DNA of 64,000 bases from Tausonia pullulans (taxonomy: Eukaryota; Basidiomycota; Tremellomycetes; Cystofilobasidiales; Mrakiaceae), in NCBI GenBank assembly GCA_951802195.1, contig OX637633.1, positions 186,001 through 250,000 of the forward strand, in the 5' to 3' direction. Below the pieces are notes generated by a model, which searched no databases, was not told the DNA's origin, and was given only the letters and a program-made list of their open reading frames with translations. Positions 31,834-43,738 of the stretch are shown in pieces. The first letter of the stretch is position 1, and each line of letters begins with the position of its first letter. The translations under genes were made by a program, and so were the position numbers.

Positions 31834-31840
31834 TAATATA
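31834..31840 (+). promoter_or_regulatory. possible TATA-like element of the permuted tRNA gene
   Basis: TAATATA lies about 50 bp before the 3'-half of the permuted tRNA. TATA-like boxes upstream help Pol III initiate in several lineages. Because the A box lies far downstream in the permuted order, an upstream element could matter here. Inference only. Confidence 0.3.
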
Positions 31841-31889
31841 CTGATCTGCGAGCCTATCCTTTGTCGCCGAACGAGCGTCCACTCTTGAT

Positions 31890-31966
31890 ACCCGAAGGTT
31901 TCCAGATCGAAACTGGAGCCCGCAACTAACTGCGGGCTGGCGCAATGGTAGCGTGTCGGGCTCATA
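31890..31966 (+). tRNA. circularly permuted initiator tRNA-Met(CAT), left arm copy
   Basis: The order in DNA is 3' half, spacer, 5' half. The 3' half (31890-31925) has A38, anticodon stem CCCGA, T-arm TCCAG-ATCGAAA-CTGGA, acceptor strand GCCCGCA and A73. The spacer is CTAAC (31926-31930). The 5' half (31931-31966) has acceptor TGCGGGC, TG, D-arm GCGC-AATGGTA-GCGT, and TCGGG with CTCATA. Joined, all stems pair: acceptor 7/7, anticodon stem 5/5, T-stem 5/5, 72 nt in total. Initiator marks are the three G-C pairs of the anticodon stem, T-loop ATCGAAA (A54, A60) and a U1-A72 pair as in fission yeast. Leader CGTCC (31876-31880) and GAAC (31869-31872) can pair with trailer GGACG (31971-31975) and GTTC (31977-31980). 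No matching half lies outside to make an ordinary gene. TTTT and TTTTT follow at about 31981 and 31990. Confidence 0.85.
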
Positions 31967-32134
31967 AGCAGGACGTGTTCTTTTCTGACTTTTTGGCCAG
32001 CAGCCGACCAGGGATCCGATTGCTTGAACTGGGCACGGAAGGCTCTATTCTCAAATCGCGCGCTCGGGAAAAAGAAACGCATCGATTAGTCTCTCCATAC
32101 AACGCGACGCATGGCACCCTATTGCATCACTTTA

Positions 32135-43661: not shown

Positions 43662-43738
43662 TATGAGCCCGACACGCTACCATTGCGCCAGCCCGCAGTT
43701 AGTTGCGGGCTCCAGTTTCGATCTGGAAACCTTCGGGT
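43662..43738 (-). tRNA. circularly permuted initiator tRNA-Met(CAT), right arm copy
   Basis: This is the exact reverse complement of the gene at 31890-31966, including leader, spacer and trailer. On the minus strand the 3' half is 43738-43703, the spacer 43702-43698, and the 5' half 43697-43662. It lies about 170 bp past the G6PD stop, convergent with it. Two identical copies of a permuted gene argue for function, though they also follow from the recent arm duplication. Confidence 0.85.

Follow-up and report, generated by a model that had tools for sequence, protein, structure and literature searches.

Permuted tRNA genes, in which the 3′ half of the tRNA precedes the 5′ half, have been reported in red algae, green algae, a nucleomorph and a single archaeon (PMC3978253, PMC4090602, PMC4033280), and for the algal tRNAs a precursor and a circular intermediate have been demonstrated biochemically (PMC3978253). 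In the initiator tRNA (tRNA-iMet) genes of the green algae Micromonas pusilla and Micromonas sp. RCC299, which belong to the prasinophyte type II, the 3′ half, an intervening sequence and the 5′ half follow one another and the halves meet at position 37/38, as in the genes described below, although the linkers of the algal genes measure 47 and 12 nt as against 5–8 nt here, and the host here is a fungus with 14 dispersed genes of a single isotype (PMC3978253). The red alga Cyanidioschyzon merolae likewise combines an upstream TATA-like sequence, a T-stretch and a splice motif at the transcript ends, tRNA-iMet included, but 11 of its 43 tRNA genes are permuted with four types of junction, and its tRNA-iMet linker is 74 bp long (PMC3978253), whereas only tRNA-iMet and only the 37/38 junction were seen here within the part of the genome that was searched. 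The archaeon Thermofilum pendens shares with this fungus the initiator isotype as well as the permuted order (its tRNA-iMet and tRNA-Tyr genes are permuted), while its junction lies at 59/60 and is served by the archaeal machinery (PMC3978253). The same order is found in the green alga Auxenochlorella, where the discovery started from a tRNAscan-SE set that was incomplete (PMC12636532). Elsewhere one or two permuted genes per anticodon are tabulated (PMC3978253), compared with a set of 14 initiator genes here. A search of open-access literature, PMC3978253, PMC12636532, PMC8450103, PMC4090602 and PMC4033280 among it, turned up no permuted tRNA gene of a fungus, although the body of a paper or a subscription article may mention one; for a Mrakia genome tRNAscan-SE was run at its default settings, and the word "permuted" does not occur in that paper (PMC12749792).

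The genes reported here came to light in a stretch of 64,000 nucleotides from the cold-tolerant basidiomycete yeast Tausonia pullulans (contig OX637633.1, positions 186,001 to 250,000), referred to as the window. Its features are as follows, in window coordinates.

31835–31840, plus strand: TATA-like element AATATA, 55 bp upstream of A38
31869–31880 (31869–31872 and 31875–31880), plus strand: 5′ leader arm, which pairs with the trailer according to folding and a swap test
31887, plus strand: G at −3 of the 3′ splice site, the expected A-I partner of C32 (31961); G in 14 of 14 genes
31890–31925, plus strand: 3′ half of tRNA-iMet (A38 to A73), with the 3′ strand of the anticodon stem, variable loop, T arm (ATCGAAA) and 3′ strand of the acceptor stem
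31926–31930, plus strand: linker CTAAC between A73 and U1, 5–8 nt long across the 14 copies
31931–31966, plus strand: 5′ half of tRNA-iMet (U1 to A37), with the 5′ strand of the acceptor stem, D arm, 5′ strand of the anticodon stem and CAT
31971–31980, plus strand: 3′ trailer arm, which pairs with the leader according to folding and the swap test
31981–31984, plus strand: first T-run, TTTT, a likely RNA polymerase III terminator; a second, TTTTT, lies at 31990–31994
43662–43738, minus strand: second, identical permuted tRNA-iMet (3′ half 43703–43738, linker 43698–43702, 5′ half 43662–43697)

When the halves are joined in tRNA order they form a 72-nt molecule with 7 bp in the acceptor stem and 5 bp each in the anticodon and T stems, carrying U8, A14, A21 and A73 and the anticodon loop CTCATAA. 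ARAGORN calls this joined form tRNA-Met(cat) and makes no call on the genomic order; across the window, ARAGORN and Rfam report three tRNA-Arg genes only, and both miss the permuted locus. The order of the halves, the CTAAC between A73 and U1 and the 72-nt cloverleaf with a CAT anticodon are thus as the original prediction, which had proposed a circularly permuted nuclear initiator tRNA gene in a fungus, described them. That prediction is supported for this one gene and is borne out at the level of the genome, where 14 permuted genes and no conventional initiator gene were found, although it had overlooked the second copy in the window, the 12 further genes, the pairing of leader with trailer and the U:A pair at 1:72.

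Which tRNA these genes encode can be judged from several residues. The CAT anticodon together with G29-C41, G30-C40 and G31-C39, which are initiator features (PMC6412873), is present in all 14 sequences, as is the T loop ATCGAAA with A54, also an initiator feature (PMC3978253), and A60. The A1-U72 pair said in a review to occur in all eukaryotic and archaeal initiators (PMC6412873) is replaced by U1:A72 in 14 of 14, and the label "initiator" therefore rests on the remaining features. Position 60 is likewise an initiator feature of the T loop when occupied by A, and A20 is usual in eukaryotic initiators, a pattern from which the U20 found here departs. Initiator traits hold for the anticodon, the T loop and the three G-C pairs of the anticodon stem and fail at U1:A72 and U20.

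When the joined tRNA served as a DNA query against the full genome (23,855,473 bases, 21 contigs), each half matched 14 times. The matches pair up in 14 loci on seven contigs, and at every one of them the 3′ half comes before the 5′ half with an intervening sequence between 73 and 1. The halves are identical in 13 loci; in the remaining one (L044, on contig C1) two bases differ, and the change is compensatory, converting a T-stem pair from A-U to G-C. The linkers read CTAAC, CTAAAC, CTAAAAC, CATAAC, CTTAAC or CTAAACAA. Recent duplication accounts for three pairs of loci (L032/L033, L037/L038 and L039/L040), and apart from these no 16-mer is shared between loci in the 200 bp to either side of them. 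By eye the leaders of L039 and L041, and less clearly those of L036 and L037, appear distantly related, and the resulting 11 contexts are therefore an upper estimate of independence: the permuted genes sit in at most 11 independent settings. A perfect inverted repeat of 1569 nt carries the first window copy in one arm and the second in the other.

A misassembly that swapped the halves, the error that the original prediction had named as able to undo it, is next to impossible. Nothing was found in its favour; the two window copies do lie within the perfect 1569-nt inverted repeat. Against it stand 14 loci on seven contigs, which represent no more than 11 independent contexts, and a published HiFi coverage of 458x with QV 71.1 (PMC11803393). 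A local assembly error is untenable on these grounds. The assembly, gfTauPull1.1 (GCA_951802195.1), comprises 20 chromosomes and a mitochondrion of 18.82 kb in 23.9 Mb (PMC11803393). The species name is the one given by the depositors, and the best named protein matches, Phaffia rhodozyma (37%) and Mrakia frigida (52%), are in keeping with its order.

Signals for transcription by RNA polymerase III surround the permuted units. Ten of the 11 non-duplicate loci, all but L035, have a TATA-like hexamer (at least five of six bases matching) at −54 to −61, while random windows of the same loci contain a mean of 0.85 and none of 2000 draws reached 10. TTTT occurs no more than 35 nt after A37 in all 11 non-duplicate loci (14 of 14 with the duplicates), against a random count of 0.93 that likewise never reached the observed value in 2000 draws. 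If initiation takes place some 25–30 bp below the TATA-like box, the leader would be about 30 nt long, which is the length of the leader that pairs with the trailer. Judged by these signals together with the flank pairing, the A-I base and the splicing-enzyme genes described below, the permuted tRNA-iMet genes look functional.

In the minimum-energy folds of 13 loci, leader and trailer pair with each other around the anticodon stem; the fourteenth locus, L035, prefers a different fold, and its two flanks are still able to pair as a duplex. The pairing sequences differ from locus to locus. When leaders and trailers were exchanged among the 11 non-duplicate loci, own pairs had a mean of −17.9 kcal/mol and foreign pairs −11.0 kcal/mol, and the own mean was reached by none of 200,000 permutations; eight settings of this swap test differed in the number of loci (11 or 9), the length of the leader (30 or 34 nt) and the trailer (complete or ending ahead of the T-run), and in each of them either 0 or 1 of 200,000 permutations reached it. 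The flanks of 29 ordinary tRNAs have a mean of −10.5 kcal/mol and differ from those of the permuted loci (Mann-Whitney p 1.3e-4). Several results count against the pairing: two of the 29 ordinary flank duplexes match the median permuted locus in strength, only 6 of the 11 leaders in the swap test pair best with their own trailer, and L044 pairs weakly (−8.7 kcal/mol), with 6 of 10 foreign trailers pairing better than its own.

The last three bases of the leader are GAC, GCC, GGC or GAT. In eukaryotic tRNA splicing the A-I pair joins position −6 of the 5′ splice site to −3 of the 3′ splice site, and 3′ cleavage by the Xenopus and human enzymes requires it (PMC8479045); with G at −3 in 14 of 14 leaders, an A-I pair with C32 is possible throughout. 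A splice motif at the 37/38 transcript ends, judged by pairing and the A-I base, is thus present, L044 pairing weakly, and the flanks appear to behave like an intron at 37/38.

These observations also bear on whether the loci might be dead copies, left by a tRNA-derived SINE or by reinsertion of a circular tRNA through reverse transcription. The family is dispersed and multi-copy, and reverse transcription of a circular tRNA has been proposed as a source of permuted genes (PMC3978253), but there is no common element body, 16-mers in the 200-bp flanks being shared by the three duplicate pairs only; the halves are nearly invariant, the flank pairing is kept with different sequences, the transcription signals are present, and a parent gene was not found. 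Such an origin is very improbable, and the SINE and pseudogene readings were rejected on the lack of a shared flank body, the invariant halves, the maintained pairing and the missing parent gene.

A second question is whether a conventional initiator gene exists beside the permuted ones, as the original prediction had said should be checked. The intact anticodon arm, GGGCTCATAACCC, occurs with at most one mismatch at 19 sites in the genome, one of which is a permuted copy and nine of which belong to one repeat family, and neither ARAGORN nor inspection by eye found a conventional tRNA at any of the 19. A degenerate pattern of the initiator 5′ half with up to three mismatches, which could also catch an intron-containing copy with the usual initiator D arm, matched the genome 15 times, in the 14 permuted genes and at one three-mismatch site that lacks the CAT anticodon. 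By the joined-tRNA, anticodon-arm and 5′-half searches, that is, by DNA similarity and pattern over the whole genome, no conventional initiator gene was found. Queries with yeast initiator and elongator tRNAs gave zero matches, missing even the permuted genes, and carry no weight.

Covariance models were applied to a part of the genome. The first (R1), a permuted model that includes initiator rows, was run on 60 of 112 loci and the window (253,714 bases), where the tRNA-iMet genes score 75.7–88.6 bits and everything else at most 26.1 bits, so that in this set no permuted gene of another isotype rose above 26.1 bits. Since R1 contained initiator rows, a second model (R2) was made without any, using seven other tRNAs of the genome that had been permuted in silico. 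Applied to the window and to 20 of 114 loci (21 sources, 143,648 bases), R2 gives the 14 genes 55.8–69.2 bits, and all 14 can in this respect, as the window copy can by ARAGORN once joined, be read as complete tRNAs. The best of the other 47 rows reaches 39.2 bits and comes from dense arrays of ordinary tRNAs in two public contigs (L113, L114), and the best non-initiator score in this genome's other loci of the same scan is 26.3 bits. The two public contigs, which serve as the negative control, are the single matches of a gapped pattern in each of two public collections (a contig of a viral collection and a bacterial MAG), and both are arrays of ordinary tRNAs. The score gap of R2 puts the permuted loci far beyond chance.

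It could still be that the permuted genes are real and expressed while a divergent conventional gene supplies most of the initiator tRNA. The atypical U1:A72 of the permuted genes would fit this, and so would the scope of the model searches, the covariance models having covered a subset of loci and the Rfam tRNA search of the genome having scored 63 of 897 candidates; yet the 19 anticodon-arm sites hold no conventional tRNA, the only other 5′-half match is without a CAT anticodon, and 14 copies under selection would be superfluous. This arrangement is quite improbable. The favoured reading, to which we assign a probability of about 0.93, is instead that the loci are functional type II (37/38) permuted nuclear tRNA-iMet genes and that this basidiomycete yeast very probably has no other initiator tRNA genes.

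Genome matches above the curated family cut-off exist for a Sen2/34-type subunit, Sen54, Trl1 and Tpt1, and a route from gene to tRNA can be proposed with them. RNA polymerase III would start downstream of the TATA-like box and stop at the T-run, giving a transcript of leader, 3′ half, short linker, 5′ half and trailer in which the leader-trailer duplex would stand in for a 37/38 intron. The Sen endonuclease, guided by the C32:G(−3) A-I pair, would cleave after A37 and before A38, Trl1 would ligate A37 to A38 to form a circle of 77–80 nt, and Tpt1 would remove the 2′-phosphate at the junction, after which RNase P and tRNase Z would excise the linker and CCA would be added. The start tRNA is thus probably produced via a small RNA circle, where transcription, circle and order of steps are inferred from the anatomy of the genes. 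A different order is conceivable, in which the linker would be excised first, by RNase P and tRNase Z, and the paired half-molecules would then be spliced in trans with no circle; folding of the transcript already forms the acceptor stem, with A73 and the 5–8-nt linker closing it, but the circular intermediate found biochemically for algal permuted tRNAs (PMC3978253) speaks for the circle, and this order is unlikely. The broader proposal, that every initiator tRNA of this yeast, and probably of its family, passes from permuted genes through an obligatory circle, making initiation dependent on Sen and Trl1, with the conventional gene lost and the first pair switched to U1:A72, is reasonably likely. 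The Trl1 ligase gene (G000:C6:341837–342704) is situated about 2.5 kb from the permuted initiator gene at C6:345176–345252, which is probably a coincidence.

Because the linkers are similar in all copies, the gene set suggests a single permutation event that would have been followed by duplication, loss of the conventional genes and a period long enough for the flanks to diverge with pairing kept. Relatives in the Mrakiaceae should therefore share the permuted tRNA-iMet. A fungal case extends permuted tRNA genes to the opisthokonts, and does so with the most essential tRNA, present as a permuted set of 14 genes of which no conventional copy was found. It also adds a fourth lineage with a permuted tRNA-iMet and raises the question of why the same isotype recurs, while the differing leaders and trailers provide natural experiments in the compensatory evolution of a splice substrate. 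This yeast can be cultivated, so direct tests of the circle, of the enzymes behind it and of how U1:A72 affects eIF2 are feasible. Genes of this kind will escape standard tRNA annotation, as they did with ARAGORN and Rfam here.

Several further observations were made in the genome. The window contains three pairs of inverted repeats (31112–32680/42948–44516, 1569 nt, 100%; 29646–30068/44688–45110, 423 nt, 99%; 30921–31166/44448–44693, 246 nt, 99%); both arms contain a tRNA-Arg as well as the permuted gene, and the arrangement is a recent inverted duplication. The repeat family among the anticodon-arm sites is a dispersed repeat with nine closely similar copies (L063–L068, L071, L076 and L077, on C4, C5, C7, C17 and C19) that contain TGGCTCATAACCC, and ARAGORN finds no tRNA in it. 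At L025 743–827 and L028 915–999 ARAGORN calls a tRNA whose anticodon has four bases (caag), which may be a degenerate copy or a tRNA-Leu that contains a small intron. The published BUSCO completeness of 29.9% contrasts with QV 71.1 and a k-mer completeness of 100% (PMC11803393, Table 1) and is perhaps due to very intron-rich or divergent genes. The mitochondrial genome (L081, C21) is compact at 18.8 kb (18,821 bp), and none of the 120 matches listed for its cytochrome b exceeds 67% identity; the named ones among them are nearly all basidiomycetes.
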